Positions 21,117 to 28,943 of a stretch of 34,943 nucleotides of DNA are shown here, in pieces (the first letter of the stretch is position 1; each line of letters opens with the position of its first letter). The position numbers were made by a program, and so were the translations under genes. Below the pieces are notes generated by a model. It saw only the letters and a list, made by a program, of their open reading frames with translations, did not search any database and was not told where the DNA came from. This DNA is from Pelagibacteraceae bacterium AG-345-F21 (GTDB taxonomy: Bacteria; Pseudomonadota; Alphaproteobacteria; Pelagibacterales; Pelagibacteraceae). Location: the NCBI GenBank assembly GCA_003281795.1, contig QCAW01000001.1, positions 79,206-114,148 of the forward strand, in the 5' to 3' direction.

Positions 21117-21188
21117 GAATCCTTAACACAAGAGAGTCCATTTTTTTTATAAAATGGTTTGACCCTAAATTCAATTTAGAGTTGAATC
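21117..21188 (+). promoter_or_regulatory. cluster of three GANTC methylation sites before ccrM
   Basis: GAATC (21117-21121), GAGTC (21134-21138) and GAATC (21184-21188) lie in 72 bases between the rnhB stop and the ccrM ATG. The last is five bases before the start codon and lies in an inverted repeat (ATTCAA 21169-21174, TTGAAT 21182-21187). A second inverted repeat, CCATTTT/AAAATGG (21138-21144 and 21151-21157), lies between. GANTC is the target of CcrM, so self-regulation by methylation is suggested. No complete CtrA box is visible. Confidence 0.55.
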
Positions 21189-21193
21189 TAAAA

Positions 21194-22267
21194 ATGACGA
21201 ATTATTCCAACAAAATTTTAAATGCCGATTGCTTGAAAGAGCTGAAGAAAATTCCTGACAAAACTTTTGATTTAGTTTTTGCTGACCCGCCTTATAACAT
21301 GCAGATTGGAGAAAAACTAACACGACCTGATGCAAGTAAAGTTGCAGGAGTAAATGATAAGTGGGATCAGTTTAGTAGTTTTGAACATTATGATGGTTTC
21401 TGCAAAGCATGGTTGACTGAATGCAAAAGAATTTTAAAAGACAATGGAAGTATTTGGGTAATAGGTTCTTATCATAATATTTTTAGATTAGGATATCACT
21501 TACAAAATTTAGGTTACTGGTTGCTAAATGATGTGATTTGGAGAAAAAATAATCCAATGCCTAATTTCAGAGGTACTAGATTTACTAATGCTCATGAAAC
21601 TTTAATCTGGGCTTCAAAAAATAAAAAATCTAAATATACTTTTAATTACCAGTCTCTAAAATGTCTAAATGATGATTTACAAATGAGATCGGATTGGACG
21701 TTCCCTATTTGTAACGGAAAAGAAAGATTAAAAAAAAATGGAAAAAAAGTTCATTCTACACAAAAGCCAGAGGTGTTACTTCATAGAATTATTTTAGCTT
21801 CTACTAATAAAGGCGATGTAGTTTTTGACCCTTTTTTAGGAACTGGGACTACAGCGGTAGTATCTAAGAAGTTAGGTAGATATTACTGTGGAATTGAAAA
21901 AGATAAAAAATACTTTAGTGCTGCAAAAGAAAGAATTAATAAAACAACAAAGATTGAAGATGATTATCTTGACACAATAGAAAACAACAAATCAAAACCT
22001 AGAATACCTTTTGGATCACTAGTTGAACTAGGAATAATAAAGCCTGGAACAACTTTAATGGACTCTAAAAAAAGAATTAATGCAAAGATAATGGCTGATG
22101 GAAGTATCAAGTATAAAGAATCTGAGGGCTCAATTCATAAAGTAGCAGCAAAAATTATGGGGACAGAGAGTTGTAATGGTTGGACTTACTGGCACTATAA
22201 TTCAAATGGATCAATTGTGTTAATTGATAGTCTAAGACAAAAATTTATTGCAGGAAATCAGTCCTAG
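21194..22267 (+). CDS. ccrM: CcrM-type adenine DNA methyltransferase (GANTC)
   Basis: Solitary beta-class N6-adenine methylase, known in alphaproteobacteria as the cell-cycle methylase. From the ATG at 21194 it has 357 residues. The catalytic DPPYNMQ is at 31-37 and precedes the SAM motif FDPFLGTGTTA (211-221), the beta-class order; HSTQKPEVLLHRI lies just before it. The C-terminal ~85 residues (IPFGSLVELGIIKPG, then KIMGTESCNGWTYWHY) form the RAMA-like DNA-recognition domain of CcrM. A TTG at 21182 would add four residues but lies in the putative regulatory hairpin, so ATG is preferred. No restriction gene is nearby. The stop shares CTAG with the convergent monooxygenase gene. Confidence 0.95.
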   Translation: MTNYSNKILNADCLKELKKIPDKTFDLVFADPPYNMQIGEKLTRPDASKVAGVNDKWDQFSSFEHYDGFCKAWLTECKRILKDNGSIWVIGSYHNIFRLGYHLQNLGYWLLNDVIWRKNNPMPNFRGTRFTNAHETLIWASKNKKSKYTFNYQSLKCLNDDLQMRSDWTFPICNGKERLKKNGKKVHSTQKPEVLLHRIILASTNKGDVVFDPFLGTGTTAVVSKKLGRYYCGIEKDKKYFSAAKERINKTTKIEDDYLDTIENNKSKPRIPFGSLVELGIIKPGTTLMDSKKRINAKIMADGSIKYKESEGSIHKVAAKIMGTESCNGWTYWHYNSNGSIVLIDSLRQKFIAGNQS

Positions 22268-23394: not shown

Positions 23395-24395
23395 TAGAAT
23401 AAAGTTGAAACCTGTCTTAATATTTTCTTTGTAAAATTTGGTATAAATTCTTTATTATTTTTTAAAGAGTACCAGTTATGTGTTGCGGGTATTTTATTTG
23501 AAAATTTATAATATAAATTGATGTTCAGTTTCAAATTTGAAATATTGTTCTTATAGTTTTTTAAAAAAATCCAGTTTTTATTATTTGAAAAACCATAAGA
23601 TTCCTTCATTGTTGGTAAGTTAAAATTTCTCAAAAAACTTACTTGATTTTGTTTTGTTAAAGCTATCTGTTTTTTTGTATTAATATAACAAAAAACATCG
23701 TAATTTTTATCTATAATCATTTTTTTGCTAAAGTTTTTTATTTTATCAGTAGATTTAAAATATTTACAAGTTTTATTCAAACAGCAAGAAACGCAATTTG
23801 GGTCTTTTGGTTTACATACCAATGCACCAAATTCCATCAAAGCTTCTACAAAATCTGCATTTCTTTTTGAATAAAATAGTTTTTTTTTATTTTTCATAAT
23901 AAATTTTTCAAAATTTATTTTCACCGCCTGTTTGTTTAAGTATCTTGAAAAAACTCTCTTAACATTTCCATCAACAGCAATCGTGGGTTTATTGTAAACT
24001 AAACCTAATAGTGCATTTCCTGTATAATCTCCTATACCGGGTAGTTTTTTAATTTCCATTAATGTGTTTGGAAGTTTTAATTTATAAATATTCACTAATT
24101 GTCTGGAACATGACAAAAGATTTCTGGCCCTTCGATAATACCCCAGACCCTCCCACATTTTTAAAATTTCTTTATTATTGCTTCTTGATAAAGCTCTTAA
24201 ATTTTTAAATTTTTTTGTAAAATTATTAAAATAAGGTATAACAGTTTTTACTTGCGTTTGTTGCAACATAAATTCACTTAAAAGTCTATAATAAAGCTTT
24301 TTAGGCGAATTTTTGCTAACACGCCAAGGTAAACTGCGTTTATTATTATCGTACCAAGCAAGAATTTTTTTTGGTAAATTAATATTTAAATGCAT
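23394..24395 (-). CDS. mutY: A/G-specific adenine glycosylase
   Basis: Removes adenine mispaired with 8-oxoguanine. The 333-residue protein starts near the typical N-terminus (ILAWYDNNKRSLPWR). It carries the catalytic Glu in SEFMLQQTQVKTVI, the helix-hairpin-helix LPGIGDYTGNALL, and the catalytic Asp in TIAVDGNVKRVFSRY. The 4Fe-4S loop is C-x6-C-x2-C-x5-C in CKPKDPNCVSCCLNKTC. The C-terminal NUDIX-like domain (about 225-333) is divergent but complete. Its ATG lies in the palindrome ATGCAT, shared with the divergent start of the dciA-like gene. Confidence 0.95.
   Translation of the reverse strand: MHLNINLPKKILAWYDNNKRSLPWRVSKNSPKKLYYRLLSEFMLQQTQVKTVIPYFNNFTKKFKNLRALSRSNNKEILKMWEGLGYYRRARNLLSCSRQLVNIYKLKLPNTLMEIKKLPGIGDYTGNALLGLVYNKPTIAVDGNVKRVFSRYLNKQAVKINFEKFIMKNKKKLFYSKRNADFVEALMEFGALVCKPKDPNCVSCCLNKTCKYFKSTDKIKNFSKKMIIDKNYDVFCYINTKKQIALTKQNQVSFLRNFNLPTMKESYGFSNNKNWIFLKNYKNNISNLKLNINLYYKFSNKIPATHNWYSLKNNKEFIPNFTKKILRQVSTLF
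24390..24395. other. ATGCAT palindrome giving start codons on both strands
   Basis: Plus strand: ATG at 24390-24392 starts the dciA-like gene. Minus strand: ATG at 24395-24393 starts mutY. Each protein therefore begins Met-His and the genes overlap by six bases. No other in-frame ATG lies near either conserved N-terminus. The promoter and leader of each must be inside the other gene, or the messages are leaderless. Confidence 0.8.
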
Positions 24396-24875
24396 AATAA
24401 ATATAATAATAAATTAAACAATTTCACACAAGGACTAAGGCCCTTTTCAAATTCTTTGCCTAAGACTCTAAAAAAATATTTAAGAAAGGGCGGATACAAC
24501 TATTCAAACATTATTGATAATTGGACTAATATGATGAACAAAAACATATCTGACTCTTGTTATCCTGTAACTATAAAGATGAAGAAAGAAATGAGAAAAG
24601 GCACTTTAATTCTTAATGTAATTCACGGAAAAGAATTAGAAGTAGAATATGCAAAAAAAGAAATTATAGATAAAATAAATAGCTTTTTTGGATATGAGTG
24701 TATTAGCAAAATAATTTTAAAAATTGTACAAGAAAAAATTAAAACAAAAGAAAATAAATTTCCTAAAATAAAAAATGTCGATAAAGTAAACAAAAATATT
24801 GATAAAATAAATAATACACAATTAAAAAGTTCACTTAATAATTTTTTAAAGGCATTCAATGAAAGAGAAAAGTAA
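24390..24875 (+). CDS. DUF721 (DciA-like) protein
   Basis: A 161-residue basic protein of the DUF721 family. The N-terminal KH-like part shows LPKTLKKYLRKGGYNYSNIIDNWTN, matching the family's L-x-K...W-x-x-(I/V) pattern, followed by GTLILNVIHGKELEVEYAKKEIIDKINSFFGYE. DciA members load the replicative helicase DnaB in bacteria lacking DnaC. Alphaproteobacterial DUF721 proteins next to mutY and a DsbA-like gene are commonly found, but loader activity here is inferred. The last 45 residues are Lys/Asn-rich and low complexity. The 3' end overlaps the next gene by 17 bases. Confidence 0.75.
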   Translation: MHNKYNNKLNNFTQGLRPFSNSLPKTLKKYLRKGGYNYSNIIDNWTNMMNKNISDSCYPVTIKMKKEMRKGTLILNVIHGKELEVEYAKKEIIDKINSFFGYECISKIILKIVQEKIKTKENKFPKIKNVDKVNKNIDKINNTQLKSSLNNFLKAFNEREK

Positions 24876-25452
24876 ATATATATTAGTAACTTTTGTGTTT
24901 ATTGCTTTGTTTGCTTTTACAAAGGCTGAAAGTAAAGCATTAAGTTTAGGTGACTTAGATGCAAAAATAGTTGTAAAAGTCTTTTCATCTCTTACATGTC
25001 CCCATTGTGCGAGCTTTCATGAAAAAATTTTTCCTGATTTGAAAAAAGAATATATTGATAAAGGATTGGTAGTGTTTGAACACCATAGTTTTCCGCTGGA
25101 TTTAGCAGCTCTAAATGCAGAAATAATTTTAAAGTGTAATTTGGAAAATAATAAAAGTTTTCAATTACTAGGCGAAATTTACAGAAAACAAAATAAATGG
25201 GCTGTTGGATCTGATATAAATGTAATTAACGAATCTATAAAAAAGATTGGTTTAGGTTTTGGCTTAACTAAAATTAATATGGAAAAATGTCTAAATAACG
25301 AAAAATTACAAGATCAAATTTTAAATGAAAGAATTGAAGCTCAAAAAAAATATAAAATCCAGTCAACTCCTACAATTTATATTAATGAAAAACAGTATAA
25401 AGGTACTCATGAATATGAGTTGTTTAAGAAAGAAATACAAAAATTACTTTAA
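24859..25452 (+). CDS. DsbA-family periplasmic thiol oxidoreductase
   Basis: A 197-residue thioredoxin-fold protein with an N-terminal signal peptide (basic start, hydrophobic ILVTFVFIALFAF, to about residue 24). The active site is SLTCPHCASFH with C47 and C50, and the cis-proline lies in IQSTPTIYINEKQY near residue 174. The CPHC pair is that of DsbA/DsbG-type proteins. It may form disulfides in exported proteins; a DsbB partner is not in the window. It is fixed between the dciA-like gene and smc, with smc starting on the base after its stop. Confidence 0.88.
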   Translation: MKEKSKYILVTFVFIALFAFTKAESKALSLGDLDAKIVVKVFSSLTCPHCASFHEKIFPDLKKEYIDKGLVVFEHHSFPLDLAALNAEIILKCNLENNKSFQLLGEIYRKQNKWAVGSDINVINESIKKIGLGFGLTKINMEKCLNNEKLQDQILNERIEAQKKYKIQSTPTIYINEKQYKGTHEYELFKKEIQKLL

Positions 25453-27897
25453 ATGAAATTTAAAAAATTAGAGATTATTGGCTTCAAGTCGTTTTCTGAG
25501 AAAACGAATTTTTTAATTGAGGATGGTTTAACAGGAATAGTTGGTCCTAATGGTTGTGGTAAATCCAATATAGTTGAGTCCCTAAGATGGTGTATGGGAG
25601 AAAACTCTGCCAAAAGCATGCGTGGATCTGGAATGGAAGATGTAATTTTTTCTGGGACTTCTAATCGACCTTCTAAAAATATTTCTGAAGTAACAATATC
25701 AATGGATAATAAAAGTAAAAATGGCCCTTCTCAATATAATGAAATTGAAGAATTATTAATAAAAAGAAAAATTGAGAAAGACAAAGGATCAAAATATTAT
25801 ATTAATGATAAAGAAGTAAGAGCACGAGATGTTCAAACTTTTTTTGCGGATCTTTCAACTGGAGCACATTCGCCTTCTCTTATCAGCCAAGGAAAAATTG
25901 GTCAGCTAGTAACTTCAAAGCCTATAGAAAGAAGATCAATACTTGAAGAAGCTGCAGGTATATCTGGAATACACGCAAGAAGACAAGAAGCTGAAACTAG
26001 ACTAAATGCTGCTGAAAATAATTTAAAAAGAGCAGATGAACTAAAAAAACAACAACAGAAACAATTAGATAATTTAAAGAAACAAGCAGAAGAAGCGACG
26101 AGATATAAAGAAATATCAAAGGAAATAAAAAGAATTGAAGCGGGATTGTACTATTTGAAAATACAAGAAATTGAAAAAGAAAAGAAACAAATTTCGGAAA
26201 AACTCAGCGAACTAGATGATGAAATTAGTGCAGTAAATATTGATATGAACCATAATAATACACTTTTGGATGAAGAAAATAAAAAACTATCTCCTTTAAG
26301 AGATAAAAAAATGGAAAGCGCTGCAAAACTTCAAAAATTAAATTTAGAAATGACAAATCTTGATGAAGAAGAGACAAGAGTAAAATCTTTACAAATAAAA
26401 TTAGAAAAATCTAATAACATTATCGACTCTGACTTAGAACGTGAAAAAAGTATTTTTTTGGACGCAGGCATAAATGACAAAAGAATTTTAAAAGAAAAAG
26501 AAGAATTATTAAAAACAGAAAATGAATTGCTTGAAGTTGAAAACGTTTCTTATAAAGAATTAGCTTCTTCAAAGGAGAGTTTAAAAAATTTACAGTCTCA
26601 ACTAAATAATTTATTAGATAAAATTGAAAATTATATTGACCAAGATAAAAAGTTAACTAAAGATATTTTTAGAGAATTGAAAGAGCTAGTAAACAAAATC
26701 ACTTTATCTCAAGAAAAATACGCGGAAAAATACGGAAAAAATAAATCTATTCAAAGCGATTCTATTAAAAGAAAAGAAAGAATTAAAAATATTGATATTG
26801 AGCTTGAAAATTGGAGAAATTTAAAATCGAATTCAGAAAAGATGATTTCTGAACTAAATGAAAGAAAAAATAAAATTCAAATTGAGATAGATGAAAATAA
26901 AAAAAACCCAGAAAAGATAGCAATATTGAAAGGTCAGAATTTACAAAATTTAGAAAATACAAAAAAAAGAAATTCAGAAATAGAGCAAGAATTGCTTGAC
27001 TCAGAAAAAAAATACGATCTAATAAATAATAACCTCAAAGAGATACAAATTAAAATTTCAGATCTTAAAGAAAATAAAGCCAGAAACGAAGCAACAATAG
27101 ATGGAATTAATAATAGGAAAAAAGATTTATTATACTCAGTAAAAAATGAATTAAATATTGAGAATGAGACGGCAATATTGGCTCAATCAGACCTAGTTGA
27201 TTTAACACAAGAAAATTATCCTATAATTGAAGACCAGACTTTAAAAGTTGAAAAAGTAAAAAAGAAAAGAGAGTCTTTGGGGTCAGTAAATTTACGAGCG
27301 GATGAAGAGACAAAAAAATACGAGGTTGAAATTAAAAAAATGGAAGATGATAGAGCTGATCTATATTCTGCAATTGTAAAATTAAAAGCTAGTATTAATG
27401 AATTAAATCAAAAAGGAAGAGAGCGCCTGCTAGAAGCTTTCACAAAAGTTAACAGAAAATTTAATGAAGTTTACACTAAGCTTTTTAGTGGAGGTACTGC
27501 AAAAATTGAATTGGTAGACTCTGATGATCCTTTGGAAGCTGGTTTAGAAATGTTTGTTTCACCTCCAGGAAAGCGACTCCAATCAATCACATTGTTGTCC
27601 GGAGGAGAGCAAGCGTTAACGGCTTTATCTTTAATATTTGCAGTTTTTTTAGTCAATCCTTCTCCAATTTGTGTTTTAGATGAAGTAGACGCTCCCTTGG
27701 ATGATGCTAATGTAACTAGATTTTGTTCTCTTTTAGATGAGTTAACTAAAATAACTAACACAAAATTTATTATTATTACTCACCATGCATTAACTATGTC
27801 TAGAATGCACAGATTGTATGGGGTGACGATGGCAGAACAGGGAGTAAGTCAACTGGTTTCTGTAGATTTACAAAAAGCTGAAGAACTTGTAGCTTAA
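25453..27897 (+). CDS. smc: chromosome segregation protein SMC, short form without visible hinge
   Basis: ATPase of the condensin type. At 814 residues it is far below the usual 1100-1200. The N-terminal head is complete: Walker A GPNGCGKSN (31-39) and SLISQGKIGQL (142-152, Q-loop region). So is the C-terminal head: signature LLSGGEQAL (714-722), Walker B ICVLDEVDAPLDD (739-751) and the His switch FIIITHHAL (772-780). Residues 175-650 are highly charged coiled coil with few glycines, and no globular hinge or CxxC zinc hook is seen. ALGSVNLRADEE-like SLGSVNLRADEE (608-619) marks the return to the C-terminal head. The gene is one open frame, with no sign of a frameshift. atpZ begins eight bases later. 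Confidence 0.93.
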   Translation: MKFKKLEIIGFKSFSEKTNFLIEDGLTGIVGPNGCGKSNIVESLRWCMGENSAKSMRGSGMEDVIFSGTSNRPSKNISEVTISMDNKSKNGPSQYNEIEELLIKRKIEKDKGSKYYINDKEVRARDVQTFFADLSTGAHSPSLISQGKIGQLVTSKPIERRSILEEAAGISGIHARRQEAETRLNAAENNLKRADELKKQQQKQLDNLKKQAEEATRYKEISKEIKRIEAGLYYLKIQEIEKEKKQISEKLSELDDEISAVNIDMNHNNTLLDEENKKLSPLRDKKMESAAKLQKLNLEMTNLDEEETRVKSLQIKLEKSNNIIDSDLEREKSIFLDAGINDKRILKEKEELLKTENELLEVENVSYKELASSKESLKNLQSQLNNLLDKIENYIDQDKKLTKDIFRELKELVNKITLSQEKYAEKYGKNKSIQSDSIKRKERIKNIDIELENWRNLKSNSEKMISELNERKNKIQIEIDENKKNPEKIAILKGQNLQNLENTKKRNSEIEQELLDSEKKYDLINNNLKEIQIKISDLKENKARNEATIDGINNRKKDLLYSVKNELNIENETAILAQSDLVDLTQENYPIIEDQTLKVEKVKKKRESLGSVNLRADEETKKYEVEIKKMEDDRADLYSAIVKLKASINELNQKGRERLLEAFTKVNRKFNEVYTKLFSGGTAKIELVDSDDPLEAGLEMFVSPPGKRLQSITLLSGGEQALTALSLIFAVFLVNPSPICVLDEVDAPLDDANVTRFCSLLDELTKITNTKFIIITHHALTMSRMHRLYGVTMAEQGVSQLVSVDLQKAEELVA

Positions 27898-27905
27898 AAC
27901 TGTAA

Positions 27906-28190
27906 ATGGAAAACAAAGAAGATTTTAAAACTCGCCTTAAGATTGCAAAATCTAAAATAAATAAGCACCTTACTTCTGAAAGCGAAAAAAAAGGCTCTTT
28001 TATGGGTAGTGCTTTCAAATTAGGCTCTGAATTAGTTGCTGCAGTGGGAGTTGGGACAATAATTGGGTTTATTTTAGATAGTTGGTTTGGTACTAAACCA
28101 TGGTTGATAATTATTTTCTTTTTTTTAGGGGCAGCTGCTGGAATACTAAACGTTATCAAGACAGCTAACCAGATGCAAAAAGAAGATTAA
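27906..28190 (+). CDS. atpI: ATP synthase F0 assembly protein AtpI/AtpZ
   Basis: A 94-residue membrane protein with two helices (about 38-58 and 66-84). The first carries ELVAAVGVGTIIGFILDSWF and the second LIIIFFFLGAAAGILNVI, the alphaproteobacterial AtpI/AtpZ pattern. Family members help assemble the c-ring or supply magnesium, and lie first in the atp operon. It starts eight bases after smc and 18 before atpB. Its N-terminal 35 residues are charged and cytoplasmic by prediction. Confidence 0.88.
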   Translation: MENKEDFKTRLKIAKSKINKHLTSESEKKGSFMGSAFKLGSELVAAVGVGTIIGFILDSWFGTKPWLIIIFFFLGAAAGILNVIKTANQMQKED

Positions 28191-28208: not shown

Positions 28209-28943
28209 ATGGCTAATAACCCGATGCAACAATTTACGGTTCACAAAATCGGACCTGAAATAAAAATTGCAGGAATAGATCTATCCTTTACTAATGCCAG
28301 TTTGTTTATGGTCATAAGTGCCGTGTTAATTTCTTTTTTTTTATTTTTAGGTACAAGAGAAAAAAAAATAATACCTGATAAAATACAATTAATAACTGAA
28401 ATGCTTTATAATTTTGTTGCAAAAATGATAAGTGATACTGCTGGCTCTAAAGCTAAGCCATATTTTCCTTTTATATTTAGTTTGTTTATGTTTGTTCTAT
28501 TGTGCAATATGGTAGGTATGCTTCCTTATTCTTTTACAGTAACTAGCCACATAATAGTTACTTTAATCATGGCTTTATTTATTTTTGTTGCAGTTACTAT
28601 TATTGGTTTTGTCAAACATGGATTTAAATATCTTAGCATTTTTGTACCTAGTGGTGTACCTGCTATTCTTTTGCCTTTAATAACAGTAATTGAGATAATT
28701 TCTTATTTAAGTCGTCCTGTTAGTCTATCAGTGAGATTATTTGCTAACATGATGGCGGGTCATACTATGTTAAAAGTTTTTGGAGGATTTGTAGTGAGTT
28801 TAGGAATATTAGGTGGGTGGTTACCACTTAGTTTTTCAGTAGCATTAACAGGTTTGGAAATTCTGGTAGCGTTTTTACAAGCATATGTTTTTGCAATATT
28901 AACCTGCATCTATTTAAATGATGCATTAAATTTACATCATTAA
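28209..28943 (+). CDS. atpB: ATP synthase F0 subunit a
   Basis: Stator channel that conducts protons to and from the c-ring. At 244 residues with five to six helices it is the usual alphaproteobacterial size. The essential arginine is R176 in SLSVRLFANMMAGH, preceded by EIISYLSRP. The last helix has LEILVAFLQAYVFAILTCIYL with its conserved Glu and Gln. It is second in the F0 cluster, 18 bases from atpE. The F1 genes (atpHAGDC) are not in this window, as is common in alphaproteobacteria, where F0 and F1 lie apart. Confidence 0.97.
   Translation: MANNPMQQFTVHKIGPEIKIAGIDLSFTNASLFMVISAVLISFFLFLGTREKKIIPDKIQLITEMLYNFVAKMISDTAGSKAKPYFPFIFSLFMFVLLCNMVGMLPYSFTVTSHIIVTLIMALFIFVAVTIIGFVKHGFKYLSIFVPSGVPAILLPLITVIEIISYLSRPVSLSVRLFANMMAGHTMLKVFGGFVVSLGILGGWLPLSFSVALTGLEILVAFLQAYVFAILTCIYLNDALNLHH

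Follow-up and report, generated by a model that had tools for sequence, protein, structure and literature searches.

Locus and protein features

The window examined in the present study is a stretch of 34,943 nucleotides from the SAR11 member Pelagibacteraceae bacterium AG-345-F21 (contig QCAW01000001.1), in which an smc gene lies between genes for a DsbA/thioredoxin-like and an atpI-like protein. Conservation of the encoded protein was assessed over 127 near-complete SAR11 SMC rows (124 distinct sequences, the window's own included), after leaving out three of 130 rows: L071, a fragment of 712 aa, and the pair L054 and L084, one and the same gene carrying a TAG in frame. The features are as follows:

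24390–24875, plus strand: dciA, replicative helicase loader, upstream of smc (PF05258)
24859–25452, plus strand: DsbA/thioredoxin-like protein, directly upstream of smc (PF13462)
25453–27897, plus strand: smc, orthologue of 814 aa without a recognisable hinge (above the TIGR02168 cut-off; no PF06470 match at E ≤ 1)
25543–25569, plus strand: Walker A, GPNGCGKSN, residues 31–39 (K37 and S38 in 127/127 near-complete SAR11 rows)
25948–26640, plus strand: predicted N-terminal arm helix, residues 166–396 (anchored spans and AlphaFold)
26641–26658, plus strand: predicted hairpin turn QDKKLT, residues 397–402 (AlphaFold, with helices to 396 and from 403)
26659–27153, plus strand: predicted C-terminal arm helix, residues 403–567 (both AlphaFold models)
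27154–27225, plus strand: predicted coiled-coil break, residues 568–591 (both AlphaFold models)
27592–27618, plus strand: ABC signature, LLSGGEQAL, residues 714–722 (S716, G717 and G718 in 127/127 rows)
27667–27705, plus strand: Walker B, ICVLDEVDAPLDD, residues 739–751, E744 included (D743 and E744 in 127/127 rows)
27906–28190, plus strand: atpI-like gene, the first after smc (PF09527)
28209–28943, plus strand: atpB, ATP synthase subunit a (PF00119)

The smc gene is a single open frame (the stop codon is included in its coordinates) and its product has only 814 residues, both as recorded in a first-pass annotation of this DNA. According to TIGR02168 the protein is a bacterial SMC, scoring 669.9 bits against a curated cut-off of 567.35. 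Its best PDB matches are SMC heads (3zgx at 330 bits, and 5xg3), and the best named records are Pelagibacteraceae SMCs of 87% identity; one of the 80 matches listed is from Candidatus Pelagibacter ubique HIMB058. The three head motifs are complete at the positions first assigned to them, and two ABC-type half heads with Walker A, signature and Walker B are present in every one of the 127 rows, together with ten invariant ATPase-site positions (K37, S38, R57, Q146, S716, G717, G718, D743, E744 and H777). Between the heads, residues 175–650 are rich in Lys, Glu and Asn as had been described (15.5% K, 14.5% E and 9.9% N), with six glycines counted rather than about seven. There is no Cys between residues 47 and 740; because residues 175–650 hold none, the protein lacks a CxxC hook, as the annotation had noted, and this zinc hook, a trait of Rad50/SbcC, is likewise absent from all 127 rows.

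A DsbA-like gene directly upstream of smc is also found at loci L241, L141, L179 and L101, and dciA lies upstream at L101 and L241, the latter from a second hinge-less order described below. Downstream, atpB follows smc in the hinged L141 and L206 and in the hinge-less L179 and L241, and the order DsbA-like, smc, atpB is common to the window and the hinged L141. Since the neighbourhood is shared with hinged relatives, the window gene is the orthologous smc and not a paralogue. Elsewhere in the window, positions 21182–22267 (plus strand) encode a CcrM-like adenine methylase with a RAMA domain, which scores 577 bits against the 830-bit curated cut-off of the Caulobacter-type CcrM model.

Search for a hinge domain

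In canonical SMCs it is through the hinge that two proteins dimerise and the ring is closed. The first-pass annotation had proposed that this domain is missing from the window protein, in keeping with which an HMM search with PF06470 (SMC_hinge) gave no match in that protein, none elsewhere in its own genome and none in the 117 sampled genomes of the order. This model is insensitive in the class: it matched 93 of 289 genomes, in many cases along only a portion of its length, and was silent on a Caulobacter control. Because PF06470 was too insensitive to serve alone as the deciding test, an alphaproteobacterial hinge profile was built from residues 494–645 (L141 numbering) of 30 full-length alphaproteobacterial SMCs, 20 of which are in alignment A2; the profiled region covers the place where PF06470 does match the same protein (G225:C100, about residues 505–555).

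The profile matched 51 of 60 further frames, a set not wholly independent of the training rows, as L111–L140 were chosen through a PF06470 match and seven of these are the same genes as training rows. All 30 frames of L111–L140 were matched, as were 21 of the 30 from L191–L220, whose genomes were not used for the profile, at ≥59.5 bits. The nine misses comprise eight fragments of 274–480 aa, which need not span the hinge, and the hinge-less L199 of the second order, and shortened hinged proteins of 869 and 876 aa still score 73–103 bits. The 130 SAR11 SMC rows score at most 2.3 bits and none has a hinge; with no hinged SMC among the sampled relatives, the lack is a trait of the order as sampled and not a peculiarity of one genome. 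A PDB search with one alphaproteobacterial hinge returned no match.

Extent of the loss and predicted arm structure

The position of the missing residues was located by spans between four anchors (residues 165, 331, 454 and 613 of the window SMC), counted in the 127 near-complete SAR11 rows and in 14 full-length hinged proteins. The span 165–331 measures 166 aa in 127/127 SAR11 rows and 14/14 hinged proteins, and the span 454–613 measures 155–165 aa in SAR11 versus 155–160 aa in the hinged proteins. The distal span 331–454, by comparison, is 123 aa in the window and 110–196 aa across the order versus 457–478 aa in the hinged proteins. The head-proximal arms thus keep their old length and the cut is roughly symmetric around the predicted turn, amounting to the hinge (about 152 aa assumed) and about 95 aa per arm, which agrees with the initial proposal that a hinge of about 150–200 aa and part of both arms were lost.

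AlphaFold modelling of residues 160–626 (36 sequences; mean pLDDT 88.8, pTM 0.42) predicts helices at 161–396 and 403–567 with one break at 484, so that the arms would form one helical hairpin with a six-residue turn and no globular piece between them. The full-length model has the same hairpin turn, its heads being poor from a shallow alignment (pTM 0.32). At the position of the turn, hinged SMCs have about 95 aa of arm, the hinge and about 95 aa of arm. The coiled-coil break at 568–591 sits at the place of the SMC joint, which we take it to be by its position. A PDB search with the SAR11 arm profile matched only head-proximal SMC segments.

Distribution and history

Of the 117 genomes sampled from the order, 108 gave an SMC match; most of the open frames listed for them measure 799–891 aa, and shorter ones of 533 aa (G099) and 479 aa (G047) also occur. 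Three of 75 near-complete genomes gave no match. Families f1 and f2 form one clade in a quick tree (SH-aLRT 99). The SMC tree covers the SAR11 proteins and other alphaproteobacterial SMCs; three of its rows, L203, L207 and L215, come from cut loci and so fall short of the full open frame. In a single genome (L054:5001–7442, AG-917-K20, identical to L084 of G108) the frame is interrupted at codon 392 by a TAG, immediately ahead of the predicted hairpin turn. The halves on either side of it are equally conserved (89% and 88% to L009), with no in-frame ATG, GTG or TTG in the printed stretch after the TAG, which may be a single-cell sequencing error, decay or the mark of a split SMC.

A second alphaproteobacterial order (L241–L245, from G138 and G402–G405) also has SMCs without a recognisable hinge, of 803–817 aa in five of six genomes, none of the five with a CxxC motif; the sixth genome gave no SMC match. 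These assemblies are of 600–1,100 kb and 54–89% complete. The quick tree does not resolve where the second order belongs, its branch measuring 1.99 changes per column; a constraint that groups all hinge-less rows raised the likelihood by 5.08 over the free search (p-AU 0.621). Because this test does not reject one clade of all hinge-less SMCs, a single hinge loss is allowed, though not demonstrated, and long branches affect this part of the tree.

Short arms do not force the loss of the hinge, as families f31, f135, f48, f58 and f113 (assemblies of 1.2–1.6 Mb) have shortened arms and keep it. The shortest hinged alphaproteobacterial SMCs consist, outside the heads, of the proximal arms (166 aa between anchors) and the hinge, with almost no outer arm. 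SMC lengths vary widely in the class, from frames of 869–882 aa (L201, L206 and L213) to 1523–1531 aa (G141 and G264). Many genomes of the class sample (for example G118, G121, G122, G126 and G134) gave only weak matches to the SMC model (E about 1e-4 to 1e-9) and may lack a canonical SMC, although with two candidates scored per genome this is possibly a search artefact. A scan of viral contigs gave 14 loci, nearly all of them short matches, at ≤52% identity.

Condensin partners

The genes for the partners of a bacterial condensin, scpA, scpB and parB, are all present in the window's own genome, where ScpA and ScpB are encoded side by side (C6:18029–19233). Across the order, ScpA was found in 98 and ScpB in 100 of 117 genomes, each in 69 of the 75 near-complete ones, the same six of which gave neither. 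Missing contigs likely explain the near-complete genomes without SMC (3/75) or without ScpA and ScpB (6/75). The ScpA profile covered no more than the first 70–98 of its 232 positions in f2 and in many f1 genomes, so the C-terminal end of the kleisin is profile-confirmed in part of the set. ParB was found in 27 of the 31 genomes searched, the window's own included. A second SMC-like gene was looked for in this genome, which gave one match to the window SMC (8 of 15 candidates scored), and hence nothing else was seen to fill the SMC role.

Selection and conservation of the arm tip

Rough dN/dS estimates for the window's genus (27 sequences; 92 of 351 pairs at pS ≤ 0.65, with synonymous sites near saturation) are 0.03–0.07 in the heads, 0.09 and 0.16 in the two arms, and 0.26 in the tip, the most relaxed part. 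The window smc is under purifying selection and its neighbourhood is kept, which upholds the earlier suggestion of a probably functional gene in a conserved place. Within the genus, tip residues 361–420 are among the least conserved, with an entropy of 1.27–1.78 bits per 20-aa block; head blocks range from 0.08 to 0.65 bits with one exception of 1.37, and the arm block 581–600 is as variable as the tip (1.78).

The length of the tip is also variable. The distal span takes values of 110, 123–124, 164–170 and 195–196 aa between genera and inside genus g3, and in f1 the length has changed more than once, with forms of 798 and 857 aa mixed in g3 and forms of 814 and 859 aa occurring together in g1/g6. 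In family f2 (L179–L190, SMCs of 851–864 aa), the tip at about residues 421–438 carries a conserved motif, E.YDD...W..IF..KFY, in 12/12 proteins; it lies at residue 421–422 and could be a new contact site.

Proposed mode of action and alternatives

In Smc-ScpAB, ScpA links the two heads, and ATP engages them. From the anatomy observed here we infer, with reasonable though far from complete confidence, that the SAR11 SMC is a working Smc-ScpAB condensin whose subunits are held by heads, kleisin and arm contacts, without a hinge-closed ring. An ancestral event or series of events would have deleted the hinge together with the outer third of each arm; what is left would be a two-headed ATPase with a simple helical turn at the end of its arm. 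This protein most likely still acts as a bacterial condensin with ScpA and ScpB, in which two SMC subunits would be joined by ATP-driven head engagement, one ScpA would bridge neck and cap, and the retained arm segments may touch side by side. Because the subunits would meet by heads, ScpA and arms, the complex would be an open-topped V or rod and not a closed ring, handling DNA at the heads and the kleisin.

This proposal draws on general knowledge of Smc-ScpAB and on arm contacts in Bacillus subtilis, for which the text of PMC5526789 describes a rod state formed by side-by-side arm contacts that contribute to the dimerisation of hinge-less Smc. The middle arm segment crystallised there (residues 246–379/793–929) falls inside the arms that SAR11 retains, when mapped by residue offset. 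We advance more tentatively, and with somewhat more doubt than belief, the broader view that the SAR11 order as a whole and at least one more small-genome alphaproteobacterial order organise their chromosomes without ever closing an SMC ring, arm-end dimerisation having been dispensable in evolution.

The alternative that survives best, although we consider it rather unlikely, is that the hairpin tips still dimerise through the coiled-coil end, for example by a four-helix contact, with the ring closed by a new minimal interface. It is favoured by the f2 tip, whose motif makes it more conserved than much of the outer arm around it, and by the successful replacement of the B. subtilis hinge with a zinc hook described in the text of PMC5344682; as the zinc hook is still a dimeriser, that swap does not show arm-end dimerisation to be dispensable. 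In the window's own family, by contrast, the tip is poorly conserved and varies in length, which speaks against a dedicated interface there. Neither the 127 SAR11 rows nor the five SMCs of the second order have a CxxC, and comparison of the tips of f1, f2 and the second order with the hinge profile, from shallow tip alignments, gave probabilities of only 0.1–0.5% for a vestigial hinge, compared with 99.6% for a true short-armed hinge; the f2 motif is likewise not recognisable as a hinge remnant. Judged by its sequence and length variation, and having neither a Cys pair nor a recognisable hinge remnant, the tip would be the least likely contact in f1.

Distinctly less probable is a departure from the condensin role towards a RecN- or SbcC-like repair or bridging ATPase. 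From general knowledge, a two-headed ATPase on a hinge-less hairpin does resemble RecN in outline, and the first-pass annotation had called the arm RecN-like. The family models do not bear this description out, as the protein scores 50.8 bits with the RecN model (TIGR00634) against a cut-off of 407.85, and 17–29 bits with four Rad50 models against cut-offs of 700–1087. The missing hook cysteines, the presence of scpA, scpB and parB, the ancestral neighbourhood and the single SMC match in its own genome also argue against such a role, and the protein is an SMC by model, neighbourhood and ScpAB partners.

It would be most surprising if the hinge persisted in trans, on another protein linking the arm tips, since a six-frame whole-genome search with the alphaproteobacterial hinge profile found none in the 117 genomes of the order or in the six of the second order. 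The same search matched 6/6 control genomes with a hinged SMC, even one with an SMC of 869 aa; these controls were already known to match such a profile, and only G227 and G286 also match PF06470. By these profile searches, SAR11 has no recognisable hinge, in cis or in trans. An assembly deletion or a decaying gene, for which one could cite the incomplete draft status of the window's assembly (31 contigs, 85% complete) and the in-frame TAG of L054, was rejected, because 0/130 SAR11 rows have a hinge, all 127 near-complete rows share the short middle, one-contig genomes included, and the gene is under purifying selection.

Comparison with known systems

The SAR11 protein shares with Smc-ScpAB (SMC_prok_B, TIGR02168) both heads, head-proximal arms of the same length and a joint-like break. 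Its genome also encodes ScpA, ScpB and ParB, and its gene keeps the neighbourhood of a hinged relative. The protein differs in having no recognisable hinge and about 95 aa less per arm. In general outline it resembles RecN and Rad50-SbcC, the heads of which also sit on an antiparallel coiled coil that has no SMC hinge, but it lacks a CxxC hook, has no family-level match to them and has different partners. Natural SMC arm lengths have modes of 238, 341 and 515 aa in the text of Buermann et al. 2017 (PMC5344682), and the predicted SAR11 N-terminal arm helix (166–396, 231 aa) is near the shortest of these, with head boundaries that differ between the two counts. The Mini-Smc and Smc(zinc hook) constructs of B. 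subtilis described there have shortened arms like SAR11 and keep a dimerisation domain, of which none is recognisable in the SAR11 SMC.

SMCs without a hinge are not new as such, having been described in the text of Sussfeld et al. 2025 (PMC12153180) for a marine actinobacterial environmental clade. By that description, the actinobacterial and SAR11 proteins are alike in being marine, SMCs by sequence, and without hinge or CxxC, and no regular SMC was found beside the hinge-less one. The actinobacterial clade branches with Actinobacteria, at the base of the actinobacterial SMCs, and is known from environmental ORFs. The SAR11 case differs in being alphaproteobacterial, order-wide and in an scpA/scpB context; the two were set side by side by description only. 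SAR11 and Pelagibacter are not named in the main text of PMC12153180, which screened GORG-Tropics genomes with a retrieval step that needed 80% length coverage. This rule would miss a protein of 814 aa against seeds of about 1200 aa, which may be why SAR11 went unseen. We found no report of a hinge-less SMC in SAR11 in open-access papers, and what appears to be new is an Smc that lacks the hinge across the SAR11 order, together with its boundaries, ScpAB partners and contrast to short-armed hinged relatives.

Implications

The SAR11 order includes some of the ocean's most abundant bacteria and has cultured members. A hinge-closed ring is a common element of models of how SMCs act, DNA entrapment among them, and ring closure by an arm-end dimerisation domain is generally taken as essential; the closed tripartite ring is described in the texts of PMC5344682 and PMC5526789. 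Because heads and partner genes are kept and the hinge is lost, the SAR11 SMC may show whether a closed ring is needed, and a natural SMC-ScpAB under selection without a recognisable hinge, across an order with cultured members, would make that need directly testable. The alphaproteobacterial case beside the actinobacterial one suggests that hinge loss may be recurrent in marine bacteria. If the proposed mode of action is true, heads, kleisin and arm contacts would suffice for SMC-kleisin chromosome organisation without a closed ring.
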